From the NCBI RefSeq assembly GCF_036370855.1, contig NC_088099.1, positions 76,549,218-76,613,217 of the forward strand: a stretch of 64,000 nucleotides of DNA. The letters are read 5' to 3'. Shown here piece by piece: positions 1,330 to 36,055 of this stretch; position 1 is the stretch's first letter; each line of letters starts with the position of its first letter. The notes below the pieces were generated by a model. The model did not search any database. It was not told the DNA's origin and saw only the letters and a list, made by a program, of their open reading frames with translations. Source of the DNA: Dromaius novaehollandiae. Taxonomy: Eukaryota; Chordata; Aves; Casuariiformes; Dromaiidae. The translations under genes were made by a program, and so were the position numbers.

Positions 1330-1385
1330 TTAATCTTTTTCTCTAGTTTCTATTAGCACATTGACTAATGTCTGAATATTGAGTT
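1330..1385 (-). CDS. Zinc-finger gene, last coding exon 17
   Basis: 56 nt after a strong acceptor (cccctttctag), encoding (K)[17 protein letters not shown] and TAA at 1332-1330. The sequence continues the leucine-rich pattern of the end of exon 16 (..[13 protein letters not shown]), which supports splicing over read-through. Confidence 0.82.
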
Positions 1386-4300
1386 CTAGAAAGGGGAGAC
1401 AAAAACATTTTGAAGTTACTTCACATAATACAGCATATAACATGTTCAAATCAAAGTTTTACCGTTAACAAGCCTTCCTAATTCTAGCAGAGTAAGCACA
1501 GTTTGCCTTTGTCAAAAATCACATCCAATGACAGCTATCCTATGGCATGCGCCACACCTCTTCAAATATTTTATAAATCCATTTCCAAAGAAGAATCCTT
1601 TAGTTTGAATAGTAAATCACTGTTCTTAACATTAAGGAATATTTTTGTGCTAATGGGAAAAAAAAATGTCACATAATAAACCAGCTTTTGGGTAATGCTT
1701 CCATTTTGTTATCCCTATGTTTTTGATCCATTTTGAGTAATCTCATCTACTATTAGGCCATCCACAGTTGATTATGCATGCATTCCAATACATATTTTTT
1801 TCTTTATGCTCATACACCTTCTCCCTACAGTTCCCACCCCAACAGTACAAACTCCCTGACCCTGAAATAACTGGCTCAGGATATCACATGCTAGACAGCA
1901 AGATGACACAGGAAAAACCTTTCAGTCCAAGAAAGGTGTATTCATGCTATCAGATTCTTCATCCCACTCACAACTGTATTTAGTGGTCAGGACACAAAGT
2001 CTCTTAAGAGAAGCAATTAGTGCCATTCTTCAATTGATATAGATGCTGACGGAAATGAACTCTACTCTGAAGCAAGCATACTGTCTCTGAAGCACACAAA
2101 CCACTGCTTATTCTAAGCAACTAACTTCCTATTAACAACTTTTGATATAACTCATTTTACATGAGAACTAATCACAATCTTACTTTGAAGTGCTGGATAA
2201 TATGGAGTCAATTGTTTCAGCATCCTGGTCATTGTAGGTAAATCCTTTCCTCGTAGTCTATTCAAAATGTTGGGAGTAAGACCAGCAGCATCTTCATCAA
2301 ACATCTTATCCGAGCTTCGGCACTGTTGGTAATCTCCGTATGAACAACTCCCAGAAAAGTAATAATGATGTGAACTCCAATCACTTCTGTAGTCTGACTT
2401 CTGATGCCTAAATTCCAGACACCTAGATTCCTGGTTCCACCTGGAGCTACCTCTTCCTGAAGAAGCAGAATTTGCAGAAAATATGCACGTATTCCTAGAC
2501 TCATCACCCTTGTAAGAAAAGCTTTGTGAAGGATAGTTTGTTGAGTATCTCCCAGATAAAGCATATGGGGCAGAAGAACTGGGATAGCAAAATCCTTGAT
2601 CACTTATATTCCTTGCTTTTGTATATGCTTGTTGATTCCTCCAATTTATACTTTCCCCACCATATAACATTCTGACAGGGAGATTACTTCCTCGCACATC
2701 ACTGGATATATATTCTTCTGAATACTCACTCACTGAATTTGTCTCATAGGTAGACGTTCCACCAGCTGAATTACTGTCAGAAGCAGATCTGCTGCACTGT
2801 CTCAGCCATTTTTTGACACCACTGGGAGGACTTCCAGCCTGAAGAGCGAAAGAGTCACTAAGTGCAGACATGACTTCAAAATCATTAGGTCTTAGTCCAC
2901 AGGAAGATGAACCATCATCTGTTTGGTAACTGTATGAGTTAGCAGGAGCAAATGAAGCATTTGCAGTACACTGTTCATACTGAGACAAAAAAGCTTGATT
3001 CCAGTTAGAGTTTCCTGAGAGAAAATGAAATAAAAAGGGCACTAAAAATTAGTAAAATATTAAATTACTATCTGAAAAGGCAATTGCTCTGAGGTTTCAT
3101 GAAGTGTTCTTCTCCTGCTTCCTTTATGTCTCACCCAAGTCTTGCAGCTTGTCATCCAACAGTCCTCATGTTAAACAGGTTAGAAAAGTTTTTCAGAGAG
3201 GTGCTCTTCTGAATCATTTTCATATCATCCCAGACTTCATGAGACTGAATGTAACCAGAAAAGTTTGTGTGGGTTTGTTTTTAATTTTTTCTAAATTTAT
3301 TAAATACCACCAGGGCAACTGTTTTGCAAAAGAAACTTAATTCAGTATAAGCCCCTTTTTGTCTGAGTATAAGGTGCTGAATGCATACCTAGTGGGTTAG
3401 CAAACATCAGGCTTCCTTCCTTCACTGGATTTGTAAAGCTGAATAAAATTAAAAATAATAGAATGGAAACGACTGACTAATTAAATCACTTGAACTTATA
3501 AATCATGTGAATTCCACCATATTTTGTTTTACTGTGGAAGCATCTTAAAAAAAAACAAAAAAATCAACCAGTGGAATTATCATTTGAAGACCTCTCGGGG
3601 ATTAGGATATAATAAGCACAATACTAATTAGGAATACTATAATAAGCACAATTGTGAATAGTTAAGTTAGCATGACTTATGAAGTTGACATCTTTTGACT
3701 GACACATGGTGGTAGCACATGTACACTCCATACACCACAGATATGACATAAAATGGGTTAGCTTAAAATCACATGACTTCATTACACTGAGGAAGAAAAC
3801 AAGCACTGAATCAGCTCTGCAGTTTGCAGGAAAAACAAACAGAAAGACTTTACAAAACTTAAAGTTCATAAATCCTTTAGAGAGAGACTCAAGAAAAATC
3901 TACCACAAGCTCTACTTTTGCAGCTCACCCTAAAGTCCTTTCTTATCAAACTTCTTTTTATCCTGAGTTGCAAGGGGTAGAAAAAAATGCTTAAGGCAAC
4001 CAGCAGTCTAACGAAACAAGCTAAAAATCTCTCTCATTTTACCCCTTAGCATTTCTGTCAGAGGTATTTACTCTCAATGACAAGATACTCCTCTGAAGAC
4101 AGCTTGACACACCAGCCTTCAAAACTGAAACTAGGAGGATGTTACTGCTTGGATTTGCAATAACCTCTACTACCGTGATAATGTTCATTGAGACAGAAGT
4201 GTTAGACAGTCAAGGTCAAAGTCACTAAGGCTGTAGAAAATGGTAAACTGAACTGACCCAGAAGACAGAGGCATACAGTACTCTAGCAAAGCAGCACCGT

Positions 4301-7300: not shown

Positions 7301-10300
7301 TGTTATGCTATAGCTGCACTAGCTTTTCAAAGAGCAAAGTCCATAAAAATATGACTTAGAAATTAATGTTGTCTTCAAATGAGTTTGATCAGTAATGACT
7401 CCTTCACAGGTTCACTGCTTCATACCAGTAAAACTGCACAAATGTTAAAACTTACCAAATTCTGATCACAATTATTTTACCTACATACCAAGAACTCTAG
7501 AGCTTTCTGTTTCCGAATGGGATCATTCTGTAGGAACACAGGAAGATGAAGAAAAATTCAAAGACTTAATACCACACAGTATGTGTTGCGTCATTTTGTA
7601 CAAAATAAGAGTTTTTAATCTTTTATCCAACAACAAAAGCAACACAGAGAAAAGATAGTATTTTTAGGTCACAGCAGTCAACATATAATCTTAGGCCCTC
7701 AGCAGATAGCAATTAGGCAACGGTTACTACAAATACAACCACATTACTTCCATTATTGGGAAGAACACATTTCACTTCTAAGCTATACAAATTAATACAA
7801 CAACGTTATAGATAAGCATACTGAGGCTGGGGGTATTTAAAACTTCTACAATATCACAGTGGCAGCTAGATTAAGATTCTTGAATTCTCTTCCTTGAATC
7901 GACTTTGGACAACTGGGCAGCCAGTCACAGATACACAGAGAAACTACAATTGCAAGGTCAAATAACACGTGTCTGTTTTGATATGTGCTGCCTGGACATG
8001 CTTTTTAAGAGGTTGACATTTTGAAGTGCTGAAATACTCTAAAGGCATGGAGGACTGAATCACTCCCAGAGAAACAAGTCAAAAACATTATGCTTTACAG
8101 CATTATGATATAAAAATCTGTTACTTCAAGGCATGCTTTAAGTCCTAAAGCAAGAATGCACTTCAACACCTAGCAAAGAAAGAACCAGTGATGCAAGAGA
8201 ATTATAAATTGATGTTTTCAGAGCACAGCAGCTACTTCTGTCCTACCAGCTTTTCAGTACATCTGAAAAAGAGACAGCCATACTATACATAGCCATCTTC
8301 CCAGGAATCTAGACATCTGAGGCAGTGAAATACCTTTACAAGGCAAAACAAACAGCTCTGGACAGCACATTAGAACAAAATAAAGGTGCACTGGTCAAAC
8401 CGAAATAGATTGCAAAAAATCTCATTAAACTTAATTTAAACCAGGACATGTTTGCACACAGCAATTCATATATTTAGCTAAAAGCTGGAGTTAGAATGGC
8501 CTTAACTCTCAAACAAGCTTGAAAAGCAATGGTTTGGTTGAAACCAAGCCACAGTACAAAGACAATGTCTGATATAACTCTGATGTCTGATAAACTTGAG
8601 AAATATTTCCCACTACAGGCACATCTTTCAAATGTTAAGATAGTAGGAGAGCCAAGGAAAGTCTCTGTTTCAAAAAGATATTCAAACTAGTGAAACCGGC
8701 TGTAAAACAACCAAATGTAGCAAGCCTGAGGTCATGCACATTGCCAAACTATGTCTTCATTAGAAAGGAAAGTTTTATAAAGGCTGATTCAACTCAGCAT
8801 GCCCCAAATAGATGTGATGTTGCATATTTGCCTTGTGCTCCTGCCAGTCACCACTGAGGGTCTTGCCACAATTACTAATCTGCAATTCAGCTACCCGGCC
8901 GAATCATATTTAGTCCCATCTAAATAAAGATAGCAATAGTCTGGAGGTTTCCAGACAAGACAAATCGCAACTTTATGTAACAACCCACTAAGGTTCTTCC
9001 ATTGGTCATTATTTCTGCTGCATGAAAGCCCTATTGGCAGGTATCCTTGTTGGGCTTCTTTTCTGTTTTCTGTCTTGAACACTGCCAATTCCCTCCATAC
9101 CTGAAAGAGCCATCTTTTCTAGGCTTTCCTTACTCAGGTCCAACCTTATCTTAAAAAAAGCCAGGCACCAACTTCCAGCTAGCATAGCATCTGACCAGCC
9201 TGAGGCCTGAAAGAGCAACTCATTACTACAGTACACATCAGATTGCAAAGTACCTCTCTGGCACCAAGATAAAGATAAAACAGTTCTCTATATTCATACC
9301 CAGTGCTGTTTGGGACGGACACTACAGAGACTATTTGGGGCTTTGAGTTAGAATAAAAAAGGATTTTTAATCTTTAGACATATCAGAAGATTTAAAGCAA
9401 ATTCTCAGCATAAAACACTTGATCTGAAAACAGGCAACACAGAAGTGGAGCGTGCAGCTTAATGTGGGCTTTAGCTGGCCTGCAAACATTTACGTCTCAG
9501 GCTCCCAGTCATTTTGAACTGGAATTATGAAAGCTCAAATTGCAATATTCACTCCCCCTGTGCTGAAATAAACACAAAGGTCAGATATTAGCTCAGATAT
9601 TTTGCTTCCTAAAATGGGATTAATAAAATGGGAAATAAAGCCAAAGACTAAAAGTTATTCAGAAAAAAGAAGAGGACCACAAGGAAACTGCTACAATATA
9701 TGACATTTGCAGAATTACTACCTGCTACATACCTCACGCTTATAATCATCTTCCCACCTTAAAAAGAAATGAAAATATTAAGATGCATTCTAAAGGTAGG
9801 TTTATTCATAAGCATCTAAGATCAAAATATTTCAATTTTCAAATTTACATCACTTCCCAATATAAGATTTTTTTTTTAATATGGCATATCTAAAATACTA
9901 TATTTCTAAAGGTCCTTATTCTGACTAACTTTTAAAGAGATCAGTAGTACCGATGAGCTTCTTTACATACAAGCTAAAGAAGATGACTAAAGTAATGGTG
10001 ATTTTTTCTCCCTATAAGGACAAGGGTGCCAACTTACTGTTTTCTTTGGGATGTCATTGCCTATGTAACACTTTGAAATTTAAACCACAATTTCTTTGTG
10101 CATGCATGCATCAGACTGCTATTGAACTGCATAACCAGTGCAATAGTTCTGAAAGCCATAGCTACTCAAAAATTGAATAAGAAATTTTACTTCAGGTTAG
10201 TTTCTGACAGAAAGACGAGAACAATTTATACAAAAGGAAGAAGTATAGTGGAAAGACAACAAAAACTCGTTTCCTCATACGTGGCAATGTTTTGTCACGG

Positions 10301-13300
10301 AAAAGATCTATTTAGTAAGTAAGGTGATCTCATAACAAAAAAAAAAAACCCTCTTGATCCCCTTGTGTGGGTTGTTTCCTCACCTTGCTTTCTTCTTTGA
10401 TAGGGCTAGAAAATTAAAAAGAATTATTAGCAACATCATAGGGGTTTCTACCATATTACTGCAATAGAAGTATTAAACAGAACAATTACTGGCCCTAAAG
10501 TGGCTGTAGTTTTTTAAAGGATGGGATTCAGTAGCCAATACCTAGGCACATAGTGCCATTTCAGATGCCATATGGCATCCATGATGAAAGGCCTATGGGA
10601 GACCTGCGCCTTTACAGCTATGCAGTATATACATTAGAGCATTTAGGCAACTGTATAACATATACATATAACATGTATAACAAGTTAGGCAACATGTATC
10701 CATACAGACACAAGTCAGTATGGATTGAACTTAGGTGGGCATGTCTCCTACATGCAAAAAGTGAAAAGCTTTTTTTCTTTTTTTACTGCCAACTCATCAG
10801 TGTTCCTCAATGCAGCATATGTTCTAGCCCTCCAACAGGTTATGAAGACTACAATGACTAATAATCTCTCTTGCCAGCACAAGACTGTAACCATGAAGAA
10901 GCAGCATAAGCTCCATAAAACAAGGAAGTCTGAATGACAGTAGTTATGCCTCAGAGGATCAGATATTGCATGATCACTATTTCTTAAGTACTTATCAGCA
11001 CATATGTTCCAGGATAACCAACAGGACAAATAACAACTCTCAAGACAAATGACATCTTTGCCCTACAATCTGTGGCTGAAATGTTTGTGTTGTGTATCAA
11101 TCACCTAATGTTGAACAAATGCTGATCAGCTGCAACTCTTGTTTAGCTCTTCTTAGCTACACTGCAGGTCTCAAAATTTCAAGTGTAGGGAGAGAAACTG
11201 ATGGCCATCATTTCACAGAAGAGATCCAATGAAGTAAAAACGATGGAAATGTGGGATGAAAGGGACATCTGCAGCTAGAACCACAGAATCATTACAAAGT
11301 TGAGGTTGGAAGGGACCTCTGGAGGTCATCTAGTTCAGCCTGAGAAGTAAGAGAAAAGTACTGTAAAGGTGATAAGCAGAACACCCAACAGAAATCAGAC
11401 TATTAACTGTAAAATAAGAACACTGAAAATTAGAATGATTAGAATTATACAATTTGTGCTGTCTTTCTAGTAAACCTCCAAAATTCTCCCCATTTTAAAA
11501 GATGGGTGGAGACAAGGTGGTCAGTGGTCATCAGTGGTTGGACTCCTCACCTTACTCAAGCTAACCACTGAGGTTCTGCTAACTTTGACAAAAACTAGCT
11601 TCAGTATTAGATCAGGCTGTTCATGCCCTTGTGTCCAGTTGAGTTTTGTAAGTCTTCAAGAATGGTGATTTCCCACCTTTCCAGGCAGGCAGTTCAAGTG
11701 CTAGGCCACTCATTATGCTCATGATTTTTTTTTTTTTCCATGTTCAATTAATTTCCTTTATTGCAACCTGTGAATGTTGCCTTTTGTCTTTTCTATGCAT
11801 ACCTTCAAGAAGTCTGGCTCCTTCTCTGTAGCCACCCTTTAGGTAGTAGGAGACAGCAATTAGATCCCTTCCTCAGCCACTGCCTTCTCCAGGTTAGTAA
11901 GACAGAAGTTCCCTCAGCCTCTTCCTACATCATATGCTCCAGTCTCTTCATGCTATTTCTACCTGGCGAGTCCTCTGCTGATTCTTTCCTCACCCAAATT
12001 TCATGTGCATGCAGGATGGTATTTCAGAAGCAGCCTTGTAAGTCCTGAGCAGAAAAGGAAAAAGCCTACAACCTTCCCTCAACCTACTGACTATGCTCAT
12101 GCTAATGTAGTCTAGTATGACGCTAGCTTTCATTACAGCAAGGGCAAATTGCTGATACATATTCATATTATTGTATATCAAAATCTGCAGGTTCCTATCT
12201 GAAGATTTGCTCCCTAGCCCATCAGTATCCAGCCTGTATCCAGCGGAAGGTTGCTCCATCCCAAGTGTAGGACTTCACATTTGTCTGTGCTGAACTTCAG
12301 GAGGTTCCTGTCAGCCCATATCACCAGCTTGCTGAGGTCCCTCTGAATGGCGTTCTCGCCCTGCACCATGTATCAGGCTTTCCCCCTAAGCTGATGCCAT
12401 CTGCAAATTTGACAGTCATATATTCCATCACATTATCCAAGTCGTTAACTGTCTTCAGTAAATCCACATGGGCTGCTCCCACTCATCCTTCTTGTCCTTC
12501 ATGCACCAGTAAATGACCTCCGTGAGGGCCTGCCTCAATCTTCCCAGGGTCTGGGTCAGCCTGTAGTTCCCTGGATCCTCCTTCTTCGCTTTCTGAAGAT
12601 AAGCATGACATTTGCTTTTTTCAAGTCATCAGGGAACTCCTTTGATCAGCATGACCTTCCAAAGAATGTAGAGAGCAGCCAGCTCCCTCAACACCAGATA
12701 CATCCCATCTTGTTCCACAGTCTTGTACATGTTCAGTTTGTTACTCCCTAAACTGATTTTCCTCTACAACACATAATAATATTCTCCCCTAAACTCTGCA
12801 ATGACACAAAGAGACCTGGGAGCAGAGCTTACCAGTAAAGACCAAAGCAAAATAGGCAAATATCTCAGCCTTTTCCATGCCTATCACAAGGTTATCTGCT
12901 CTACTCAGCAGGGGGTCCACATTTCCCTTTTGCTGCTGTTATATTAGGGGACTGGAGCATCTCTCCTATGAGGAAATGCTGAGAGAGCTAGGCCTGTTTA
13001 GCCTGGAGAAGAGAAGACTGAGATGTTATTAACATATACAAATATCTTAAGGGAGGGTGTCAAGAGGATGGGGCCAGACTATTTTCAGTGGTGCTCAGCG
13101 ACAGGACAAGAGGCAATAGGCACGAACTGAAACACAGGAAGTTCTATCTGAAGAAAAACTTCTTTACTTCAAGGGTGACAGAGCACTGGAACAGGTCGCC
13201 CAGAGAGGTAGTGCAGTCTCCTTCTCTGGAAATATTCAAAACCCACCTGGACGCAATGCTGTGCAACATGCTCTAGGTGACCCTGTTTGAGCAGAGGAGT

Positions 13301-22300: not shown

Positions 22301-25300
22301 TAACAGTTAAAAATAGCAATTGTGATCTTGATGACACTTTCCATCCTCACTGGCAGTTTTGTATGAAAGCAACATTTAAGCTCTGCATGTTTATCAGCCG
22401 CATAGCTTTGTAGTTCTGTTAACAATGCAAATTATACTTTTTACCCAAAACTGAAACACAATAGTATTTTCCCTTCAAGCACATTAGATAGACTGGAAGA
22501 ACAGACTGACACGTGCGCTGAAAATGAGCTGGACTGTCAGGCTCAAAGGACAGTGATGAACAGCCTAAATTCTTGTTGGTGACTAGTAACAGAGTACCCC
22601 AGGGAGCAATTCCAGGGCCCATAATGGATAACATTTTTATCAATAACCTGGCTGAGGGCACACAGAACCCCCTCAACAAATTCAGAGACACTACTAATTA
22701 TGGGGATTAAACTGATGTCAAAGCTTTGGTCAAGCAGAACCTTGGGAACACTGAGGATTAAAGACACCTCAAGAAACTTAACAAGGAGAAACACAGAGTT
22801 CTGCACCTGGAATAACCCCCACAGATCAGCACAGGCTGGGATCTGACTGGCTGAGCTACACTGCTCTTGGATAGAACCTGACAGGTATGAGATGCCAAGC
22901 TGAATACCAGCCAAAAGCACATCTCCTCATAAACAAGGCAAACCACACACTGAGATAGCTTAGGTGGAGCACAGGCAGACGACTTACGAACACTTTTATC
23001 CTTCACTATGTGGTGCTTGTGAGGTTGTCTAGTTTCAGCCCTCCTCATCTCTCCAGCTCAAATAGAGAAACCAGAGAAGGTCTAGTGGAAGGGCTACCAA
23101 GGCAAATAACTAACGGCAAATAACTTATGAGAAGACATTAGGGAGCTGGGCTTGTCTATTCTGTAGAATGGTAGTGAAGTGGAGGGTAAGGGGTGATCTA
23201 GTAGTAGCACAAGGCTACCTGAAGGGCAATTACAAACATGATGAGTCAAACCATTTGGGGCAGTAGCTGACAGCATAAGAAAACAAACAGCAGTCAGAAA
23301 TGGTTGTTTAGGAGGCACGGATTAGATGTTAGGACAGAGTTCTCCTTTGAGACATGGCAACAACAACAGACTGGTTTACACACAGCTCACAAACTCTCTG
23401 GCCTTCAGGATTTTCAAGGCTTTGCTAGGGAAGATTAGATAACCTCAAGCAATCCTTTCCAAGTAATGATTTTTACCCAGTAAGGATACTTTACAGAGAG
23501 TCGTTATCTATTTGAACAAACAGTCCTCTCCTTTCAATATTCAATGAAGTGGTCCTGAAAACATGCTTTATGTCTATACATGTATTCATAATGCGCACAC
23601 ATTCTCACTGACTCCCAGAAATAAAACAAGTAAACTTCAAAACTTCAGGACAATTTCAGATGATGTCATTTCTGTTACTCAAAGACAACACAGATACATT
23701 GGACTCGGCCCAGTAGGCTCACTTTTGAATTCCTGAGAGGTGAAGTTAACACATTCAGTCATATGAGAGAACAGCTCAGAGGGAGGAGATAAGGCAGCTG
23801 GAGTAGTGTTCAGTCATAGCATGTATATTATTAAAATCTCAGAAATATCATCTATTCTACTCTGAACTTGGAAAAGAACTTCCAGGTTTCCTTTCTACGA
23901 AACAAGTAGCAGTAGCTTTGTACCCCAAAACCATATATATACACCAGAATGTCTGCTTGGCACACACTGAACATAGAGTGGCATGCTAGAAAAAAAAAAA
24001 AAATAAATAATTTAGTTTGCATCAGAAAGCCAAAATACTGTTCAGGATAATATTTCATTGCTGAACCCAAGGCAGAACACAGGACATTTGTGCTTTCAGG
24101 GGAGGAAGGACTCACACCCACACCTGTTAAATGCACCTTATTTTCAGATCTGATTCCTCCCCTTGACCCCATGCTATACAGAAAGATTAGATGAAGCTTG
24201 CTTCACTCATGGTGCTACATAAAGGTTGCCACATCCAGCAACTAAACACCTACAATAGACTCTTAATTGCACTTTTCATTACCTTTATATCTTTGTAGAA
24301 TTATTGCAAACATTTCTATAGCTTTCTGCACCTTCCTGTAATGCAAGAAAAATTCCACAAGCTATGCAAAAAAAAAAAAAAGCCCCTCATTAATCCACTC
24401 ATTCTTTGTGCCAAATTAATTTCACTAATAACAGCCCAGAAATTGTTTTAATAGGGTTCAGACACTGCACTATCCCTCCTTCCATCTGTCCAGATATCAC
24501 TGTACAAAAAAATCATGTGAATGAAATCCATACACTAACTGGGCTTTGATTAATTTAGTAAAGTCATAAGACTTCTGCATCCTCTCTCTTCCCACATCTT
24601 CTGCCAAGCTGCCCTCCGCCAAACTGCTTGAAAGCAGGCGAAAAAAGAAAACAGATACCCAATTCTGTTATTACCACAAAAATAATTTGTTGATAGTTTT
24701 GTCATATGGAAACTTGCATGGTATCTAGATGTCTTTTTTCCAGAAAGTAATGCTCTTCCAGACGAAACCATTAGTTCATAAACAGATGCATTTTCTGACT
24801 TAGCTGACTTGGAAGCCAACAAGATTCTACAAACAGTCCTACTGTCAGGTTAGTCACGATCATGACTTCGTGATTTCAAATAGTTACTTTTGATGGGTTC
24901 AGAGAGGATACTGAAAATTGCATTTCCCGTTTCAAAATCCAAATCACTTATCCTTTTCAAGTATGATTTATGAACAATAGCAGTATTAGTGTTATTCTCT
25001 CTATTGACAAAGGAGATTCAAAAGTGTGCAGTTTTGCAGCAATGAAGAAACTGCTGGGTTGGTGTAAAGTATTTCAGTATGTCAAATCTCATCTTTTGAG
25101 GTGCCCGTTTTAATTTAGACAGTGTACATTTCAGATATCTGTCAGATTTTGTCCCAAGTTATTTCCAAGAAGACTCATCTTTCGCTTTGGCAGCATCCAA
25201 ATGTTTTTGTCCCTGGCCACTCAAAACTCACTGGAAACTTGCTGTGGCACTTTACTCTCATTGGATAATCTGACAACATGAACATTAGAATAGGACTGCA

Positions 25301-28300
25301 AATCCAATAGCAGTAAGAGCACCCCATGAACTTATATCCTGACATGATACTGTAGTCGTACTTTACATAATGTACATAATTAAGAATATCCATGCTTTTC
25401 ATGCTCCTTTGAAAGACTTCACTACTTGACTCCACAAATACAGTTTAATTATTCTTTGGGCTAAATACACATGTATGGAAACTGTAGAAAAATTCATCAA
25501 CTATTTAAAACAAAAAATAAAGGCCAAGCAATTGGCTGAGCAAATCCAGAATTTATTCTCATATCTCAGTGACAAAACAACTGATGGATTGCCTGGATCC
25601 ACTGGCTCTTGAGGAGAACCACATATTCAAAATATCTGCAGAACCTGGAGCCCTCTTGCAGACATATTACCAGTTATACAAACAATTCTGTATTGTGGTC
25701 TCCAAAATGAAAACTGAATTGCTGTCTCTGAAAAGTCACTCAGGTGGAAAGCTTTTCCACCTGTAAAAATGAAACACACCACACAACTAAAACAATACAA
25801 ATCAACCTGATCAGCCTCCTTTGGACTAGTAAACCACAACAATTGCTTAGCGAATTGGCTTCCTGTGTCTAAATCTTCAGTGAAGCAGTATTTCACATGG
25901 ATAAAGTATAACAAAGGAGACATTAATGGTATGAATAGTTGTCTTTATAATCATTTCATATTAGATGTAAAAAGATGTTGATTGCTTCAACAAGATTATC
26001 CAGGTTTAGAACTTCCTGGACTAAAGCACACACTGCAAAGCTTTTGATATGTAGTATTTCCTGCAATGCTCAGACTCTTCCAAGAAGAGTTAGCTCTACC
26101 TCGTTTAAGTTTCACATCAAAATTCTTCCCTGTAATAATCAGATATTTGACTCTGAAAGCAGAAAATTTTAACTCTTCATGTTCTGCAAGATCCATTGCA
26201 GGTGAAGGTTCTAAATCCATGGTGTTTCTGGAGATGCAGTGGTCATAATGAGCATATCTTTTTCTAAAGATGTAGGTCTTTGCAAAAGGCTCCTCTACCC
26301 CAACACTCTGCCTTTTTACAGTCTTGCTGTCACTCCTTCTGGGCTCCTATTTAAGTCTCACTTTCTCTCCAAGCATCCTTTACGTTTTTCCTCCAAAACA
26401 AGGCTTTACAGTCCTGATGCAGTAATCTCTTCAGGAATAGCGTTTAAGAAGATTACATTCATCAGTATTGGTTTTCTGAGAAGAAATGCAAAGAAATCCA
26501 TAGAAACCTGTTTTCCACTAAATTCCAGCCCTTGGTCAAACAAATCTATTGACGTATTGTTGCTAAGGTATAAATACAATTCTAGAGTGCATTTTGAGGG
26601 GACCTACATGTTTTCAAAGCTTTGGCAGAATTTCTGACAAGCAGCCGCATTACCAGTATTCCCAGAATCAGAAGATCTGCATGCAGTGTTCATGTCTGCT
26701 GAGGCAAAACAGGACAGAATGCCCCATAATTGTTCACACACTTGAATGACATGTTTTGCACTGATATTCTGTGATCAACATCAAACAACCATAGCAGCTA
26801 GTGAAGCCCAGTCTCCTGGTAAACAGACTCTGACCAGTGCTTTTTCCTGAATCTTTCTCCTGTATTGATTCTTTTGTATCCAATAAGGGGTGAATTCAGC
26901 CTGCAACGCTTCCCTCAGCAGAGGATTAACAGCATCTCTCTTCTCTGAGCAGATGCCTATTTTCAGGAACTCTCAGTCTGGTACAAAACGTCTAAGAGGT
27001 TCAAAAGTTATTGGGGAATGGATGACAAAGCAGAGCATGTTTCTTTAAGTCATGTTTCTTTGGAAAGCAGGCTAAAAAGATTAACTAGAAATGAAAAGCT
27101 CATTTCTTGTGATGACTGACTGAATGTCTATTTTGCATTTTCATCTTCACATTGACAGAGTAGAGAGTACTGATAAAATCCATGTTCTCTGCTTCCTATA
27201 CATTCAAAAGCTATTATTTACCTAGTACAACATCATTAGAGTCTTTACAGTGAGATTTCCAGTACAGCTGTGAGCAAGTTATATTCCAGGTTTTTAGTCT
27301 CTTCCTGTAACTCTTATTTTCATTGACACATGACAGTCTGGATTCATGTTCTCAGTTTATGGGAGAAGAGGTATACTCCTACAACTGAGTTTACCTTGAA
27401 TAGGTCTTTGCTACTCCAAGTCCACATTGCAATAAACAGAGACAGAACATTCATATGATGCAGCTAGGAAACACCAGCCACAGGAAGAGTTGCAACTGCA
27501 ACAGTACTGTGATAGCCTGCTGATGCTTCTCAGTATAATGCACTGATAAGCTTTAGGCAATAAACAGATGGACAACTTGCAGACAGTACAGCCCGGGAAA
27601 GTAAGAAACTAAAATACTGACTATCCATCCCTCTACTAAATAGATATACAAATATTTATATCTGGAAACGCACAGTTGAGGTTTCATGCTCTAGCATATT
27701 TCTTTGCTCAACAGTTCATAGATAAAAATCTCAGACAAGAATTTTCAGCATATCGAAGAAAAACAGTTATAAATGCATAGATTTGGCAAATGAACTACTG
27801 GAAGAGCAACAACTGTTACAATACCCAAACAATATCTATCCTAAGAGGCTGTAAAGAATAAAGTGTTATACTTACAACAGACAGTCTTGGGTCTCAGGGC
27901 TTTCTCTTTCTTTAATTATGAAGATGCAAGTCATCCCAAAACAAAATAAGAAAAAGAAATTAATGTGTTGCACCATTTAAAGAAAAAATCCTGTACTTTC
28001 TGAATGAAGCCTTTGCAGATGAATTACAGTATAGGCCAACTTTTCCATTATCAAGTAGGAAAAAATTACAGCCCTTATGATTTGCTGCAAAAGCTGGAAG
28101 TACAGACAAAAGTATACTTGTAGTTAATACCATAAGGTTAATTTAAACAAAGCCCTGGTATTAATGGATTTTTAAGAAATGAGTATGGCTTAAAATACAA
28201 AGTCACAGGGATGCTATACAAAACATTGATTTTTGTAGGATTGAGGCTCTTAAAATCCTAAAAGCTGTAGTTAAAAAAAGAAAAAAAAAAAAAAAAAATG

Positions 28301-31300
28301 TTCCCTGACCATTTGGGGCTGACTGATCAACCTGCAGATAAGTCAAATCTCCTGAAAGTTTGCTGACAGCATGAAGAACAGCAAAAGTGGCTTTCATCAA
28401 CTGAATCCACAACAGATCACTTTTTGGCAGCATGTAAGGAAAAGAACTTATATTTCCATTTCAAAACACGGCTAAAACCAGTACTGACTCATTTCTAGAT
28501 CTTTTCAGGAATAACCACAAATTTGACATTTAAAGGAATGAACCGATATAAATGTTATCATTCCACCAGTGAGGCAGCTGTTTGTCCAGACTACTCCATG
28601 AAGTTGAGCACTATGTTCGCAGTATTCAGTGCCACAAAAAAGATGCCGCAAGTCACTGTGACAATTCAGTAAGGAGCAAGACTGACAACTACTGGCACAA
28701 TTATTAAGACTGATCCAACTACTATTTGTTAAAGAAGCCAAATAGTTGTCTTTTGTGGAGTTATAAGAAATGGAAGTCACTTAAGTTCCAGTATTGCCAC
28801 AGACAGTACATGGTGCTATATGAGCTCAGGAGGATTTTATAAATTTGGAATACAGGTACTGAGTCTCCCTTGTAGTAATGCTGCCACGACCATTTTCATT
28901 ACTCATGCTACTTGTCATTCTGCTTCAGAGTTTTACAACTAACAGCTGGTAACAGCTAACTTTTCTGAAAAGTGCAGAAAACATTAGCAACTGTGAGCTG
29001 ATGTACAAAGAGAATTTCTTCCTGACCATTCTTGAAAAATCAGATTTTGACTTTGATTGCACTTGGATTACCACTTTCATTGACATCGGAAATTGACTTC
29101 CACAGTTGAAGTTGAAAGATCCATTGTACTTCTGACTCTTTCTTGAGACTTCTTGTAACAAACAAAACCCAAATACTATACCAGGAATGAAGAGTCTCAC
29201 ACTTCAGGTAAGAAACTTATTCTCTGTCCTGAGCCATATGTTGCAAGCAAGTTACAACAGCTGTTTTTGAGTTAAGATTATGAAAAGTTAGGGTTACTTT
29301 TAACAAAGTGTCTAACCTTGAGAAGCACTAACTCAAAAACCACTGCAAACCTCCCATGCACTATCATCCATAAGAGCAAGTGCATAGGATAGTTTTAACA
29401 CAATTCAAGTTCACAAGGTAGCTAACAAAACATTGTTCCACATGCATAATTAAATATTATGTAAACATCATTTAACCCTCCTTAAATATACACACTCCTG
29501 AATCCAATCAACTAGATGCTAGCAATCTATGCTTGGAAATTGTATTTACTATAACTCTTAATGCTCACACCTTAAGCAAATCCAGATTTTTTGCAAAAGA
29601 AAACTTTTACAGTTTAAGCCTCTTTGGATCATGAAGATAAGCTGCAGACCATAGGAGCACATTATATACTTCTTGGAACAAAATGTAAACAGCATAGTAG
29701 CAAGGCAAGTTTCATATAACCAAAAATCAACTATTTCAACATTCAAAGTATCAAAACAAAAACATCCAATTAATATGCTTTTCCAGCACGGCTGATCTTA
29801 ATGCCATACCAATGAACAAAACTGCCTGTACATCAGGTGTTTTCAACCACAGGTTCTAAATTATGATAACCAGGGGGAAGACATATAGCAGAAAAGAGAA
29901 CAGAGAATGAAAACGAAGACTAACAACTCTCATTACAGGTCAGGATATTTATTCTTTGTAATGAGGTTGCAAAGTCTCAAATCTAGATTCTTTTTCTTTT
30001 GGAACACAGGAGGCATTTCTACCCTCCTGAGATACACTGGGAACGACAGGAACCTTGCATCCTTGTTGGAGCCCGAACAGTCTTCACTGTGCTTCATACA
30101 CAGCTCACAGAATAGAGATGTAACACCACTTTTCTGCTGGTGAAATATCTGCAAAGGACTGTTCTCAAAATATGCAGAAAAAGGCATTCTACGCTACGAT
30201 TTCCTCTTTAGCAAACTGTCTGAGCAATAAAGTTAAGCTGTATTGGCTAAAACAGAATAAAAATATATCATGTATACTATATTTCAGGTATATGCAATAC
30301 TTCTGCCTGGGAACTGCTGTCTCAAAAGGTCTGGCTCTTTACTCATCTGCACGAAACCTTTCATTCAATATATTCCCCCACTGCTTTTTCAGACTTGTTA
30401 CAATGAAAAGCATTAGTAAGCTCATGCAAATCATAGTGTTTTCTAAACAGTTTAACATTCAACAATTTTTCAAAGTATGTAATACAAAGTCAACATCAAT
30501 TTCCTATGAAGGCTATTTTGTCTAAGTTAATTTTCCTCCCATTATTAACCATTCAACAACAAATCCACAAAACCCAACAGTATGCAACTATATAGAGGTC
30601 ATAAGATACTCAAGTACAAGATATACACAGCCCTGGATTGTGGTTATCCCTATCCCACAAACTTATTTTTATATGTATACACACATGTAGAAACCATCAT
30701 CTTGAAGAACACTGAAGTCAGCGACAAATACAAACTCTTGGCACAAAAAAGGACCAGCTCTCAGGGATAGCATGTAGATGAATTCTAAACAGGTATACCA
30801 GGCAGAATTAAAACATTACCTAATATTTTGTCAATTAAGCACCCAAAGACTTGTTTGAGAACTTCCATGCTTAAGTTTCACATATCAAAAAATAGAAATG
30901 AAATCTACTTTACCTAATCAGATAATTAATCTAATAATCTATTCTTAGATTAAAGCAACTGCTCCAAATACTGTTAGGAAAAAAGCTGCTAAGCCTTTAC
31001 AGCAATTTCAAATGCAAATCGAAAAAGCTTCAAAAACAAAATCCAAAATAGTAACACACTAGGAAAAAAGTCACTGCACAGACTGAACATTTACCTGAAA
31101 CGTTTTAAAATTACATCTGATTTTATGAAGCAACATGTCATCTAGTCTATTCCTATCTCTCAAAAATCTTTAATGCATCCATCCAATGGGTGATAGAGCA
31201 TTCAGCCTGCAAGTTGCCAATAAAGATAGAAAACAAAAACTCAGCACTTACTTTCCTGTAAAAATGCAGATTCAGCTTAACACACCAAGTCGCTTAACAC

Positions 31301-34300
31301 ACCAACCTCCCATACAGCCAAAGCAATTCAATAGGTTTTAAGTCTGGGCTTATGCTCTATTAATGAAACCAAAAAAATACTCTGAACAAAAGTAAAATTT
31401 CTATTCAACTGTTAATGAAACTGGGTAGGATGCTTAGGCTTCCCATGAAGATATTGAGATTATTTTGTTGCATATTATTTACATATTCCCCTCCTGCAGC
31501 ATCTCTCAAGAACAGTGTATGATCTAGGTGCTATCAGTTCAAATGCACAGGGTGAGAATCAGATTGAGGGGCGGGGGGGATTAAATCTCTTTAGCTCATC
31601 AGAAGCAACATTCCTGAAGCTTGTGTCAAGTGAAAAGTTGACAAACACAGATGTTTTTATTCTTTGATTATACATAGGTCACTAAAGAAAAAAAATCAGG
31701 CTAGGTATTACAGAAGCAATGTGTTCAACACAGTTTACCTAAAAAGTACGCTTAGAAGTTCGGGAAGCAGCATCTTTCTAACAGCAGCATCAGAATGCAG
31801 AATTTATTTCTAATTAGTAATACAGAAATAAGGGTGAGGAAAGCAATCAACATAGAGACAAAACCTTACTGTATCCAGAAGTAATCTAGATAAATATCTT
31901 TGGTTATTCCTGATTTGGGTAGGTACCCAACAACTCAGTTAACCAAAAGCAATACAAAATCCATATACACGAAGTCAACTGAAGTATTCCTACAGATCTG
32001 TTACAATGTCAAGCTTAACTAGTGCAGCTCCTCTTAAAATAATATGTTTTACTTCGAATAGCTACAGGAAGCGCAGGCAAATGAAATTAGAATCATTTCA
32101 CACATGTAGCAATTCTTTTCACCTTTTTCTTGGGGTGTTCCACAGTGACTGTACTCCCACTGAGGAGCAGTCACTTCTTATGCTTTTGAAATTTTCTCCA
32201 CTGGAAGACAAACACATTTACCACTGTCATTTTAAAAACAAATAGGTAGCCAAAGGAGATAGGTGACTTGACCAAATTCATAAAAGATGGCTGGAGGATT
32301 GGCTAGTGCTGTGATTTAGGTAAAGAACTTGATCTTCTTTTCCTTTTGTTATGCTGTCAGGACAACCACCTTTGGTCTTGTTTCAAGTATGAAGAACTCA
32401 CCTGGTAAGGACCATAAACTACACTCCACTCACTACCAACATCTAGCCTGTATTGAGAAAGAGCATAAGCTCAGGACTTTTACAGTTGCTTCAGACTTGA
32501 AGATACATAAACTTCTTGTGATAGATGAATGAATTCTGACCTCTTGCAGCTAAAACATACAAGAGATTTCGTAACTTAAAGTGAAGAATTAAAGGTAACT
32601 GGAAACAACAATGATGCAATCTTGAAGAGTTATTCCTACAGAATGCAGTCATGTGAACATCAGTACTAATACGCAACCTCTAACAAGTGTCCAGTTTTGA
32701 ACTGCCTGAATCTTATCCATGATAAGTTTACAGCCCTTCATTAGATAAACTCAAGAGAGTTTGAAGAAGGATAGTCAAAATAATCTAGCTTGCATTGATT
32801 CTAAAGATTGAAACAGAAGGAAAATACATCACAGTTTTGCTAAGAAAAAAATCACTGGTTTTTCACTTTAAAAGGGAGAAACAGGAATTGCTATGGAAGT
32901 TAGCTACAAAATAAAAAGAAACAACCATGTAACTAGAAGAACTTCTTGCATCAGCAAGAACCGTTTGGTAGGGCATGAAAAATACCAGGGAACTGCACAT
33001 TTCTGTTGGATCAATAGAGAACAATAATCCTGGGGAAAAAAGTGTTTGGAAAAAATGGAGCCATTGACTTAAATAAGAGTCAATACTATTAAACAACTGC
33101 TTAGCAAACAGGTAAGGGAATGCTACTAATCAAGTCTTAAAAACTGAGAGGTGGGGAGACACCCTTCATCTACAAGGGAAAGAAAAAGATCACACAAATA
33201 CTTGAGAAAGACAGTATTGTGCTTAGTCTTTAGTGTTCCAAGAAGAATAAAATGTCATTAAGAAAACAGAGCTGGCAGCCATAGTAACACAAACAATCCA
33301 ATCTCAACAATCCTAAATTACAGAGGAAAGCATGGACAACTGACTGCGCCTCAAAACTTTGCTGACTGAGAAGGTGAAGTTTAAAAAAGAAAAAAACCAA
33401 ACAAAAATTGATTGTTAGGCAATCAGGAGCCAAAAATCTCTCTTCTCAGACTCACAGTAAATTGTCTACTGATACATACAAGCAAAAACAGTAAAACTAG
33501 AAGTTGCTTTTGAGATACTTCAAACAAATAGAACCATGTGGTATGTAGTTATGCCTACTAAACTGCTGTAGGCAGTTATTCAATTAGGAAATGATGTTAC
33601 CATACATTAAAAAATTCAAATTCCAAATAAGCTATTTTTTAGTTTACATAATGCAAATACAGGTCGGTACTAACCAAAATACAAGTCAGTTATGTGGACT
33701 TTGAACGCAGAACAGTATTTTTATCAAATACATTCAAACCTGAAATTTCCATTCTTTCACTTCCTGCAATGTCTGTGTAATTTAAACATTAACCTACAGC
33801 TAGCACACTTAAGCTTACCATCATGGTTACTGTACCTTTCAACAGCTACATGTTGTACAAAACAGTTATGAGATTACCACCTCAAAATCTTTTCTTGAGA
33901 CTTTTCAAGCAAATTGGTGTTACAGATCTACCAATGAGTTACAAAAGCACTTGAAGACATGCAAAATCAATTACTCAATTTTACAAGAATTCCAGATTTA
34001 TGATTAAATTTGCATATATGCACACAATATGGGAAAAGGTTACCTTTCTATGCTTTGCACCACGATAGTGTGACTGAAGACTTATAGAACTCATACATGG
34101 AACTTTACAAACCTAAAAAGATAAATTGAAAACATTTTCAGTTCTGCTATTACTGATCAACTACAAAATATCTGTAAGAACTGGAAACAAACCCATGTCT
34201 ACAGCAAGAATTCTCAAGGTTTTCTTTTGCTTAAGCAGCACAAGTTGCATGAAATTTAGAACAACAGGACACCACTAACATGACCAGAAGTAGCGTGCGC

Positions 34301-35134
34301 CATACCTGTAAGTGATACTTGAATACATCTTTAAAAACAACAAGTGGTATGAACCTTTTAAGAGCCTCTCCTTCACTGCTCCCTACAGTTTCTGGATTCT
34401 TAGCTTTCTAAACATCTCTGCACTGGAAAGCCAACAGAAAGAGACGATCATACAGTGCTTAGGAGAGACAGAACTATATTCTAGAATCACTGCAACTTCA
34501 TTCATTGTTACATCAAAGGGATCAAAGAAACAATGCAGGAAGTCATCTGCACTCCATTAGGAATAACAGACATACATATACAGTCAGATCAATATAAGAT
34601 ACAGATCTACAGGTATTTCTTACTATCTTCAACTAAAATACTAATACACACTTGTACTGTCTACTCTTCTTGATCTACTGCCCCACATATTTAACAGGCC
34701 AGACAAACCCACTAGAATAACACATGATTTACAAAAACGTAGCATACTATGACTCAGAGTTTCATCCTCTACAGATGAGAGCGCCTTTAAAACTGCCATA
34801 AAAACCTAACAGAGATTTAAAAGCTAGCAAGTAAGGACCATAACACTACATTTGTGACAGCTCAATTCACCACATCATAGACAACTACCTCTTAGACGGG
34901 CTACCCAAGTTCTTCTCCACATTAACAGCATCTCTCAAATACAAGTTTGCTGCACCGCAGTTAAGTTAATAACACACAAATTTCTATGAGTATAGTCTTT
35001 AATACCATAATCCTGTATTTTAGCCTATATTCTGAAGAGATATCAAGAAATTTACTCACTTCACAATAGTATATTTTTTTTTCAGATTGCAGTTTAGCAT
35101 CTTCTGGCTTAACTTCTTCATTTACAGTGCTCAT
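1330..35134 (-). CDS. Two-zinc-finger (matrin/U1-type) protein, 17 coding exons, 620 aa, complete
   Basis: I rebuilt this gene by joining 17 minus-strand exons with AG/GT borders. Lengths 75+69+35+50+34+53+78+137+120+31+22+25+39+102+106+831+56 = 1863 nt, exactly 620 codons plus stop, with every junction phase compatible. Zinc finger 1 is residues 24-46 (C24, C27, H40, H46; C-x2-C-x12-H-x5-H). Zinc finger 2 is residues 151-172 (C151, C154, H166, H172; C-x2-C-x11-H-x5-H). Residues 230-240 hold a basic patch (SKKKARW) that could be a nuclear signal. Residues 327-565 are rich in Ser, Tyr, Asn and Gly and look disordered. Residues 570-615 look helical and leucine-rich. Fingers with this spacing in other families bind double-stranded RNA or act in splicing, so a nuclear RNA-binding role is a guess. 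I do not recognise the gene. A CpG-island promoter lies just upstream. Exon 3 is the least certain part. Confidence 0.85.
2184..3014 (-). CDS. Zinc-finger gene, exon 16 (large, Ser/Tyr/Asn-rich)
   Basis: 831 nt, acceptor ttttctctcag and donor CAAA|gtaaga. It encodes residues 327-602. Most of it is low complexity (Ser, Tyr, Gly, Asn) and probably disordered. The last 33 residues ([27 protein letters not shown]) look folded. If the donor is not used, the frame runs ten residues into the intron and stops at 2152. Confidence 0.93.
4385..4490 (-). CDS. Zinc-finger gene, exon 15
   Basis: 106 nt, acceptor attctctag and donor AGAG|gtaatt, encoding residues 291-325 ([23 protein letters not shown]) plus one base that completes Gly326. 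Confidence 0.85.
6052..6153 (-). CDS. Zinc-finger gene, exon 14
   Basis: 102 nt, acceptor attcaacag and donor GCAGCA|gtaagt, encoding residues 257-290 ([25 protein letters not shown]) in phase 0. The segment is predicted strand then helix and resembles no family I can name. Confidence 0.88.
7489..7527 (-). CDS. Zinc-finger gene, exon 13
   Basis: 39 nt, acceptor ttcctacag and donor TTCTTG|gtatgt, encoding [13 protein letters not shown] in phase 0. Confidence 0.82.
9733..9757 (-). CDS. Zinc-finger gene, exon 12 (25-nt microexon)
   Basis: 25 nt, acceptor ctttttaag and donor GTGAG|gtatgt, encoding (R)WEDDYKRE. The phase matches on both sides. Confidence 0.78.
10384..10405 (-). CDS. Zinc-finger gene, exon 11 (22-nt microexon)
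   Basis: 22 nt, acceptor attttctag and donor CAAG|gtgagg, encoding (P)LSKKKA plus two bases. It supplies the basic patch. It is recognised only because the flanking frames need exactly this phase. Confidence 0.75.
11281..14270 (-). mobile_element. Degenerate CR1 LINE, antisense, split by a later CR1
   Basis: Read on the minus strand, 14270-13800 matches the endonuclease part (tract corresponding to LLDLL around 13850), 12760-12260 the reverse transcriptase part (tract for 'cagagggacctcagcaagct' near 12340), and 12060-11610 the C-terminal part. The tail 'gatgacctccagaggtccc' sits near 11330-11285. Frames are broken throughout and the stretch 11345-11600 is poorly recognisable. A younger CR1 interrupts it at 12946-13350. 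It lies in the zinc-finger gene's intron 10. Confidence 0.8.
12946..13350 (+). mobile_element. CR1 LINE 3' fragment nested in the antisense CR1
   Basis: It runs from 'ggggactggagcatc' to 'accattctgtgat' in the sense direction and includes the C-terminal reverse-transcriptase tail (frame 13088-13276: [20 protein letters not shown]). It is 5'-truncated, as usual for CR1. The antisense copy resumes directly after it (gctgttat | acctacagaagcc). Confidence 0.92.
14271..16338 (-). other. Intron 10 remainder, nothing recognised
   Basis: AT-rich intron between the CR1 cluster and exon 10. I see no exon with matching phase and no repeat I can name. Confidence 0.6.
16339..16369 (-). CDS. Zinc-finger gene, exon 10 (31-nt microexon)
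   Basis: 31 nt, acceptor cttcctag and donor TCAC|gtaagt, encoding [10 protein letters not shown] plus one base. Its phase fits exons 9 and 11. Confidence 0.8.
16948..17067 (-). CDS. Zinc-finger gene, exon 9
   Basis: 120 nt, acceptor tatcaacag and donor AAG|gtaatt, phase 0 at both ends. It encodes residues 178-217 ([22 protein letters not shown]), a strongly charged helical segment that continues from finger 2. Confidence 0.9.
17656..17792 (-). CDS. Zinc-finger gene, exon 8 (finger 2)
   Basis: 137 nt, acceptor ctttcacag and donor CTT|gtgagt. It encodes residues 133-177 with the complete second finger ([15 protein letters not shown], then RRAYL). The HxxxxxH spacing of five and the tract after it resemble matrin-type fingers. 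Confidence 0.92.
17793..22489 (-). other. Introns 6 and 7 of the zinc-finger gene
   Basis: Apart from exon 7 (19233-19310), this is intron. It contains an A-run followed by G-runs at about 19569-19597. No other structure is seen. Confidence 0.6.
19233..19310 (-). CDS. Zinc-finger gene, exon 7
   Basis: 78 nt, acceptor aactgtag and donor GTTG|gtatgt, encoding residues 107-131 ([18 protein letters not shown].. REEPLV) plus one base. It leads directly into the GLEHVVE stretch before finger 2. Confidence 0.85.
22490..23470 (+). mobile_element. CR1 LINE fragment (reverse transcriptase end and 3' tail)
   Basis: Sense tracts include 'gtaccccagggagcaattcc' (GVPQGS motif region) near 22600, 'gttctgcacctgg' near 22798, and a decayed 3' end 'gattagataacctcaagcaa' near 23433. 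Stops and frameshifts are frequent, so it is inactive. Confidence 0.8.
23471..27875 (-). other. Introns 5 and 6, partly of unknown origin
   Basis: Apart from exon 6 (24283-24335), no coding exon. From about 24900 to 27500 both strands have scattered open frames up to 132 codons, without recognisable domains and not phase-compatible with the gene. It could be a very old repeat or chance. Confidence 0.5.
24283..24335 (-). CDS. Zinc-finger gene, exon 6
   Basis: 53 nt, acceptor gcattacag and donor AAAG|gtaatg, encoding [17 protein letters not shown], an amphipathic helix. Only one frame is open, and it joins exon 7 through G|TG (Val). Confidence 0.8.
27876..27909 (-). CDS. Zinc-finger gene, exon 5
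   Basis: 34 nt, acceptor ..aattaaag and donor CTGTT|gtaagt (strong), encoding (E)[10 protein letters not shown] plus two bases. The phase links exon 4 (G|AA gives Glu) to exon 6 (TT|G gives Leu). Confidence 0.65.
30820..30869 (-). CDS. Zinc-finger gene, exon 4
   Basis: 50 nt, acceptor cttaag|C and donor TTAG|gtaatg, encoding [16 protein letters not shown] plus one base. The peptide looks helical. The polypyrimidine tract is modest (tctattttttg), but both phases match the neighbouring exons. Confidence 0.65.
31739..31773 (-). CDS. Zinc-finger gene, exon 3 (tentative acceptor)
   Basis: 35 nt encoding [11 protein letters not shown] plus two bases; the donor is AG|gtaaac. The phase fits exon 2 only if the acceptor is ..ttagaaag at 31774. 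A better-looking acceptor four bases upstream (ctgttag, exon start 31777) would break the frame. The 3' phase fits exon 4 exactly (AG+C = Ser). Confidence 0.5.
34044..34112 (-). CDS. Zinc-finger gene, exon 2 (finger 1)
   Basis: 69 nt between tttttag and AAG|gtaacc, encoding residues 26-48. It completes finger 1 (second Cys, then H-x5-H in QSHYRGAKH). The finger is split between exons 1 and 2, right after the first cysteine. Phase 0 at both ends. Too short to stand out as an open frame. Confidence 0.85.
34113..35059 (-). other. Intron 1 of the zinc-finger gene
   Basis: 947 nt between the two halves of finger 1. It contains one AHR-type response element at 34291-34297. Nothing else is seen. 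Confidence 0.75.
34291..34297 (+). promoter_or_regulatory. Candidate xenobiotic response element (TAGCGTG)
   Basis: Matches the AHR/ARNT core TNGCGTG and is followed by the preferred C. It lies in the first intron of the zinc-finger gene. A seven-base match can occur by chance. Confidence 0.3.
35060..35134 (-). CDS. Zinc-finger gene, coding exon 1
   Basis: Start ATG is at 35134-35132 with A at -3 (Kozak-like). An upstream in-frame GTG at 35152 is not a plausible eukaryotic start. The exon encodes residues 1-25, ending IYYCE, which supplies the first cysteine of finger 1. The donor GAA|gtgagt is strong and the phase is 0. Confidence 0.85.
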
Positions 35135-35624
35135 CCTGCAAAACTGGTTCACTGCACATAGGACAAAAAGTCCACTTCTTTACATATTACTTTTCGACAA
35201 ATAACTCGGAGGCAGAGAGGGAGGAAGTGTTACTCGGGTGAATTACATAAAGTAAGTTGAGTTGTCCTTTTTCAACGCGTTTCTAGGGGAAACATAAGCT
35301 CTTTCACCACTAGAACACCCTTATGACCTTAAGCTTTCCGTAAATGTAGCCCCTCATGTTTGCCTTTCTTAAAGCACTCCACGGAAACGCCAGAGGAAAA
35401 GAGACCGCCCCCCAGGGAGCACCGCCCACCCGCCGCGCACACCCCCGGTGCTGGCATCTCCCCCCGCGAGTCGCTGAAGAAGCCGAGGTATCTCGGAGCC
35501 ACTTTCACCCGCTACCCTCCAGCGTCTGCTTCAGCGGGCAATCAGCTCAGCCCCAGCCGCGCGCACACCTGCCGGCACGTCCCTAGCGGAGCCGGGAACA
35601 ACAACCACATCCGGGACCTCCTTT

Positions 35625-35636
35625 CGTCACTTCCGC
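35625..35636 (-). promoter_or_regulatory. ETS/CRE composite site (GCGGAAGTGACG)
   Basis: On the minus strand an ETS core (CGGAAGTG) runs into a CRE half site (TGACG). This arrangement is typical of CpG-island promoters bound by GABPA and CREB/ATF. Confidence 0.6.
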
Positions 35637-35724
35637 TTCCTAAGAGCAACACCGTGACCCGCTGAAACCGAAGCACTTGGAGGAGCGTGCTCTTCCAGCA
35701 CGTGAAAGTGGCCCTTTTCAATAG

Positions 35725-35767
35725 CCAATAGGAAGAAGCTACCATGCCCTAGCCAATCAGAGGCGGG
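35725..35767. promoter_or_regulatory. Two CCAAT boxes and a GC box
   Basis: CCAAT at 35725-35729 (agccaatagg) and 35753-35757 (agccaatcag), 28 bases apart, both fitting the NF-Y consensus, then GGCGGG at 35762-35767. NF-Y pairs at about three helical turns are typical of strong constitutive promoters. Confidence 0.6.
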
Positions 35768-35799
35768 AGCAGCTGGTGCGAGATGATTTTTAAGGTGCC

Positions 35800-35806
35800 T
35801 CGCGTG
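35800..35806 (+). promoter_or_regulatory. Candidate xenobiotic response element (TCGCGTG)
   Basis: AHR/ARNT core TNGCGTG inside the CpG island, next to the CCAAT/GC boxes. The base after it (G) is not the preferred A or C. CpG-rich DNA raises the chance rate. Confidence 0.35.
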
Positions 35807-36049
35807 GCGGGCTGCTGGGGTTTGATTTTTCTCTTGTGGAGTGGTGGCAATGTGGGGTGACCGTCAGGGGTGGGCGCTCGTCGCTGGGGTGCGCGTGCGG
35901 GGACGTGCCGCCTGTCTCTCCCTCTGTCTGTGGCTTTGTTCGAGCGTGTTCGGCTGTAAACTAACCCTCCTGTCTTTATACTGGGGGCTGCCGTTGTAAA
36001 AGATGGAGGAAAAAAATAATTCTGCACGGTTTTAATTTAAATGCAAATA

Positions 36050-36055
36050 TTTATT
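36050..36055 (-). terminator. Distal AHRR poly(A) signal AATAAA
   Basis: AATAAA on the minus strand, followed 20-45 bases downstream by a T-rich tract (attttttcctcc), so cleavage is expected near 36025-36035. Other AATAAA copies on this strand, for example at 37503-37498 and near 38670 and 41830, could give shorter 3' ends. Confidence 0.5.

Follow-up and report, generated by a model that had tools for sequence, protein, structure and literature searches.

A probable multi-exon zf-met/JAZ-type zinc-finger gene beside AHRR in Dromaius novaehollandiae

Introduction

The described systems closest to the gene treated here are the double-stranded RNA (dsRNA)-binding proteins of the ZNF346 (JAZ), zf-met and zf-C2H2_jaz class. 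In the excerpted text of PMC10957929, the ZNF346 finger is described as binding the dsRNA backbone without sequence specificity, and a disordered region of DRG9, the rice homologue of ZNF346, is described as required for condensation. In this study, we analysed a stretch of 64,000 nucleotides (nt) of Dromaius novaehollandiae (contig NC_088099.1, positions 76,549,218 to 76,613,217), hereafter the window, and rebuilt on its minus strand a two-finger protein gene that lies next to AHRR. The first finger scores above the Pfam cut-offs of both zf-met and zf-C2H2_jaz and shares the CxxC-x12-H-x5-H pattern with this class. The protein differs from the class in that Pfam recognises only one of its fingers and in that it has a serine-rich tail.

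Paired fingers of U1/matrin spacing together with low-complexity regions, as found here, are presumably also a property of the ZFR, matrin-type and AKAP95-type proteins. The mark of the ZFR family, the DZF (nucleotidyltransferase-like) domain, and that of Matrin 3 and RBM20-type proteins, the RRM, had no Pfam match in a 506-residue joined query or in the scanned exon pieces; these scans covered that query and the accepted exon pieces, that is, coding sequence outside the stretch 34044-19310. The query includes an exon that was later rejected (14943-15013) and lacks four exons that were accepted later. Uncharacterised long fish proteins named 'si:ch211', which we take to carry a matrin-type finger, are a further lead, likened by name only. 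Fish gene names of this form appear in the excerpted texts of PMC6631549 and PMC4880927.

Results and Discussion

Gene model and promoter

We consider it likely that the window holds a genuine vertebrate gene with at least 15 coding exons and a CpG-island promoter, and that its product of about 600 residues is an RNA-binding regulator and not a sequence-specific transcription factor. The gene model was rebuilt from the sequence alone, independently of an earlier exon list. Reconstruction by splice sites and phase led on the minus strand from an ATG at 35134 to a TAA at 1330-1332. An open-reading-frame scan of the window found an open stretch of 298 codons at 2152-3048 on the same strand. In 60 simulated windows with the dinucleotide frequencies of the real one, the longest open stretch had a mean of 136.5 and a maximum of 191 codons, so the observed stretch exceeds all 60. 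The 380-codon stretch at 44253-45395 is the only longer one in the window, and the third longest has 150 codons.

A CpG island of approximately 35.2-36.1 kilobases (kb) lies just 5' of the start codon. In 300-base windows from 35201 to 36100, the guanine-cytosine (GC) content was 0.48-0.66 and the CpG observed/expected ratio 0.79-1.02, compared with a ratio of 0.18 for the whole window. We infer that this region holds an untranslated first exon, and transcription would start from this promoter just downstream of the 3' end of AHRR. The polyadenylation-type signals AATAAA and ATTAAA occur on the minus strand at 36036-36055, at the very edge of the island. The AHRR transcript may therefore end right at the promoter of the finger gene; further such signals occur farther up. 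Downstream of the gene there is a long TA microsatellite at about 808-851.

Fingers and tail

Finger 1 is N-terminal, has the form C-x2-C-x12-H-x5-H and is split across exons 1 and 2. The joined exons matched zf-met with an expectation value (E) of 1.1e-9 and 38.7 bits (curated cut-off 21.2) and zf-C2H2_jaz with E 9.4e-6 and 26.1 bits (cut-off 22.6), which places at least one finger within the class. Exon 1 alone had no Pfam match, and exon 2 alone matched zf-met (E 1.5e-6) and fell under the cut-off of zf-C2H2_jaz. Finger 2, C-x2-C-x11-H-x5-H, lies within the single exon 17656-17792, about 100 residues after finger 1 if 88 nt of coding sequence are missing between them. Recognition of this finger by the zf-met or jaz models, which would be expected of a two-finger member and is not required, was not obtained, though the x11/H-x5-H spacing is present. 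The strict finger spacing is expected 0.13 times per simulated window and was found twice in the real one. The finger exons have no internal stop.

Downstream of finger 2 there is a charged stretch and then the serine-rich tail. The last 294 residues contain 17.7% serine, 6.8% asparagine and 6.8% tyrosine, and the terminal segment, judged by eye, may be helical. The original prediction had proposed a two-finger protein gene beside AHRR with spacings x12 and x11 and H-x5-H. Both points agree with our data: the spacings are those of exons 1-2 and of 17656-17792, and the gene is supported by the zf-met match, the 298-codon stretch, the chain of 13 exons in phase described below and the CpG island. 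The low-complexity part had been placed in the middle of the protein; it is instead at the C-terminal end.

By analogy with ZNF346 and DRG9, the product most likely belongs to the dsRNA-binding proteins of zf-met/JAZ type. Like the finger of ZNF346, the H-x5-H-spaced fingers would contact the backbone of RNA that is double-stranded or structured, the disordered-looking tail would concentrate the protein in ribonucleoprotein bodies, and the protein would thus act as a regulator of RNA processing or stability. The predicted fingers and tail are read from the sequence, while RNA binding and condensation are suggested by the likeness to ZNF346 and DRG9.

Exon chain

From 19310 to 1330, 13 exons form a chain that stays in phase to the TAA (1631 nt, 543 positions including the stop), and the joined frame has no internal stop. 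Together with the finger 1 exons of 75 and 69 nt, the 15 exons total 1775 nt (Table 1). All 12 accepted internal exons that were scored reached a splice score of at least 10, with 8 of the 12 at 14 or more and 5 of the 12 at 16 or more. Two acceptors are weak, 17067 with a score of 3.8 and 3424 with 3.3. The acceptor at 3438 scores better than 3424 (7.0) but is out of phase; its frame could be restored by adding an 88-nt exon at 4043-4130, as an alternative to the exon 3389-3424.

The frame enters the 14.7-kb stretch 34044-19310 in phase 0 and has to leave it in phase 1, which requires a coding piece there. The gene had been described as complete. This is supported only in part, since no particular exons could be chosen in this stretch, which would supply 88 nt if the predicted total of 620 codons plus stop (1863 nt) is right. 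Two exons of 88 nt in sum, added to our 15, would equal the seventeen exons of the original prediction. Overall, this is probably a real, ordinary but uncharacterised vertebrate gene, in which most exons are supported and one stretch is left without chosen exons.

Table 1. Features of the finger gene and its surroundings in the window
Feature	Position	Strand	Evidence
CpG-island promoter region	35200..36100	-	GC content and CpG observed/expected ratio; acceptor tttgtcctatgtgcag immediately before start-codon exon
Coding exon 1, 25 residues	35060..35134	-	ATG at 35134; donor gtgagt; no Pfam match alone
Coding exon 2, completing finger 1, 23 residues	34044..34112	-	splice score 15.5; zf-met E 1.5e-6 alone
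Stretch in which at least one small coding exon is required	19311..34043	-	phase 0 in, phase 1 out
Exon, 25 residues, phase 1 to 1	19233..19310	-	coding score 9.6; splice score 11.4
Finger 2 exon, 45 residues	17656..17792	-	CxxC-x11-H-x5-H; splice score 16.5
Exon, 40 residues	16948..17067	-	coding score 9.6; weak acceptor (3.8)
Exon, 10 residues	16339..16369	-	splice score 17.4
Exon, 15 residues	15946..15993	-	splice score 13.4; phase fits on both sides
22-nt exon, LSKKKA	10384..10405	-	splice score 20.5, best of 12 scored
25-nt exon, WEDDYKRE	9733..9757	-	splice score 18.5
Exon, 13 residues	7489..7527	-	splice score 15.7
Exon, 34 residues	6052..6153	-	splice score 15.0; coding score 9.1
Exon, 35 residues	4385..4490	-	splice score 16.2
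Exon, 12 residues, acceptor uncertain	3389..3424	-	weak acceptor (3.3); phase fits
831-nt exon, serine-, asparagine- and tyrosine-rich	2184..3014	-	inside the 298-codon open stretch
Last exon, 18 residues and TAA	1330..1385	-	acceptor ctcccctttctag, score 10.7; phase fits
380-codon open stretch within the AHRR span	44253..45395	-	no Pfam match of its own

A first chain ran from 16948-17067 through 14943-15013 (DVKNRRER...) to 9733-9757. Its frame was open, yet it was dropped because the exons 10384-10405, which has the best splice score, 16339-16369 and 15946-15993 are compatible with one another in phase. The 71-nt candidate 14943-15013 on the minus strand has excellent splice sites and a phase that does not fit the chain, and is possibly an alternative or decoy exon. 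Within an intron of the finger gene, at 11990-14150, there are fragments resembling open reading frame 2 (ORF2) of a retrotransposon, presumably CR1, and these mimic exons (e.g., 12833-12935 and 13380-13529).

Weighing the evidence

Several results count against the reading of a multi-exon RNA-binding finger gene. The first concerns closure of the frame, which is cheap. At the thresholds used, 84 pairs of candidate exons in the stretch 34044-19310 supply 88 nt in the right phases, at least 25 single candidates would fit at other lengths, and the wrong chain with 14943-15013 was likewise open. Exact closure is therefore weak evidence for the small exons, and the claim that seventeen exons close exactly to 620 codons could not be confirmed, since our exons stop 88 nt short and the remainder can be filled in so many ways.

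The second concerns splice sites. The 12 scored exons were compared with every open candidate exon between 15 and 150 nt in length. Candidates with a score of at least 16 numbered 19 on the gene's strand of the 31.9-kb gene span and 5 on the opposite strand, a difference that may reflect base composition. The 17.9 kb of the AHRR side contained 11 such candidates on the same strand, an equal density; AHRR exons also lie on that side. Splice-site density alone is thus no proof of a gene, and enrichment of strong sites on the gene's strand was rejected as an argument. A probabilistic model with fixed ends also gave unstable exon sets. The first version gave exons that contradict the large 831-nt exon; with the second version, the expected number of internal exons changed with the intron cost, at 12.5, 21.8 or 30.8. 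Only the site scores and coding scores of this model were used.

The third concerns the protein. Even at E up to 10, neither finger 2 alone nor finger 2 in context matched a Pfam family. One of the two strict-spacing occurrences is on the plus strand (55758-55826), and we took it for chance; a looser finger pattern was found 2 times, against 2.25 expected by chance per window. Among solved structures, the joined protein came closest to ZNF346, at only E 0.51, and this weak match covers just the finger and the residues directly after it. Some further hits were taken for chance, namely a phage coat protein, the best structure for the finger 2 region (E 0.12), and the Pfam matches CENP_C_N (E 0.042) and HBB (E 0.055) behind finger 2, both below their cut-offs.

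Relatives were also sought in sequence collections. The 506-residue query and, in the later searches of viral and genome contigs, 234 residues of the corrected chain found no relative in viral contigs or prokaryote genomes, nor was one found in plasmids, which is expected of a vertebrate gene. In the animal's own genome (1.47 gigabases, 271 contigs), the 506-residue query gave six matches at E of 0.001 or below, all inside the window and one over the rejected exon, and no second or processed copy appeared among the 8 best candidates scored. The genome size and the CR1-like repeats point to a bird genome. Rfam gave 0 matches at gathering scores.

Neighbouring genes and alternative explanations

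The flanks were surveyed over 90 kb per side for open stretches with a minimum length of 90 codons (75 codons in segment L007); for segments L017-L018 the survey covers the stretches listed. PDCD6 lies on the low-coordinate side on the plus strand, with one exon at E 6e-38 to PDCD6/ALG-2 structures. EXOC3 follows beyond it on the plus strand (Sec6, E 4.3e-45), and still farther out a gene on the minus strand encodes an axonemal dynein heavy chain of the 2/5/8 class (E 2.3e-11 and 1.3e-18). AHRR borders the finger gene on the high-coordinate side and lies on the minus strand; its PAS exon at 53558-53830 matched the AHRR structure 5y7y at E 1.1e-21; the next best structure was AHR (1.2e-11), and Pfam PAS was reached only below its cut-off (E 8.8e-4). 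We infer that the 380-codon stretch is the last large coding exon of AHRR. The finger gene is therefore flanked by PDCD6, with which it lies tail to tail, and by AHRR, in the order EXOC3 > PDCD6 > < gene < AHRR. The original prediction named PDCD6 and EXOC3 as the genes flanking AHRR in mammals. This partly applies here too: PDCD6 is the nearest recognised gene across the finger gene, and EXOC3 is located beyond PDCD6.

The explanation that survives best beside ours has a somewhat better than even chance. It holds that the gene is already annotated in vertebrates under a predicted name, for example as a LOC entry called 'uncharacterised' or 'zinc finger matrin-type', that it lies elsewhere in mammals and that nothing was lost. 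Automatic annotation nearly always predicts good bird genes, and vertebrates have many zf-met proteins. Against it, none of the papers listed in searches on the neighbourhood deals with this gene as judged by title or abstract opening. This explanation is compatible with the RNA-binding mechanism and competes only with the claim of novelty. If the gene only lacks a name, it adds another finger protein to the uncharacterised ones, now with most of its exon structure worked out.

A second explanation, which we regard as unlikely, is a gene specific to birds, reptiles and fish that mammals lost during a rearrangement of the PDCD6-AHRR interval. The order found here differs from the human one, which we take to be PDCD6 > AHRR > EXOC3 > in a single direction. 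If this human order is right, a rearrangement breakpoint lies close to the gene; this is the sole argument here for a loss in mammals, and an indirect one. An extended form of this idea, which we hold to be quite improbable, makes the protein a conserved non-mammalian RNA-binding family of its own, with finger 2 in a module outside Pfam, situated at the PDCD6-AHRR junction and lost from mammals upon rearrangement. The AHRR locus has been much studied in humans in connection with smoking and the dioxin response. If birds and reptiles prove to have conserved the gene and mammals to lack it, an RNA-binding regulator would be missing at this locus, and the gene would mark a rearrangement there.

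A decayed gene, with surviving finger exons and large exon and a transcript broken in the stretch 34044-19310 or at the weak acceptors, would fit the lack of convincing exons there, the acceptors 17067 and 3424 and the failure of Pfam to recognise finger 2, but it is very unlikely given that the 831-nt exon is open, 13 exons hold phase and no stop occurs in the finger exons. We retain the reading of a probably genuine gene encoding a putative RNA-binding regulator.

On the AHRR side, matching CR1-like open stretches occur twice, at L019:5747-7509 and L023:6561-8329, about 40 kb apart and in opposite orientation. Their translations are identical among the residues listed, which suggests a recent insertion pair or an inverted duplication. 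Both copies are possibly inside AHRR introns.

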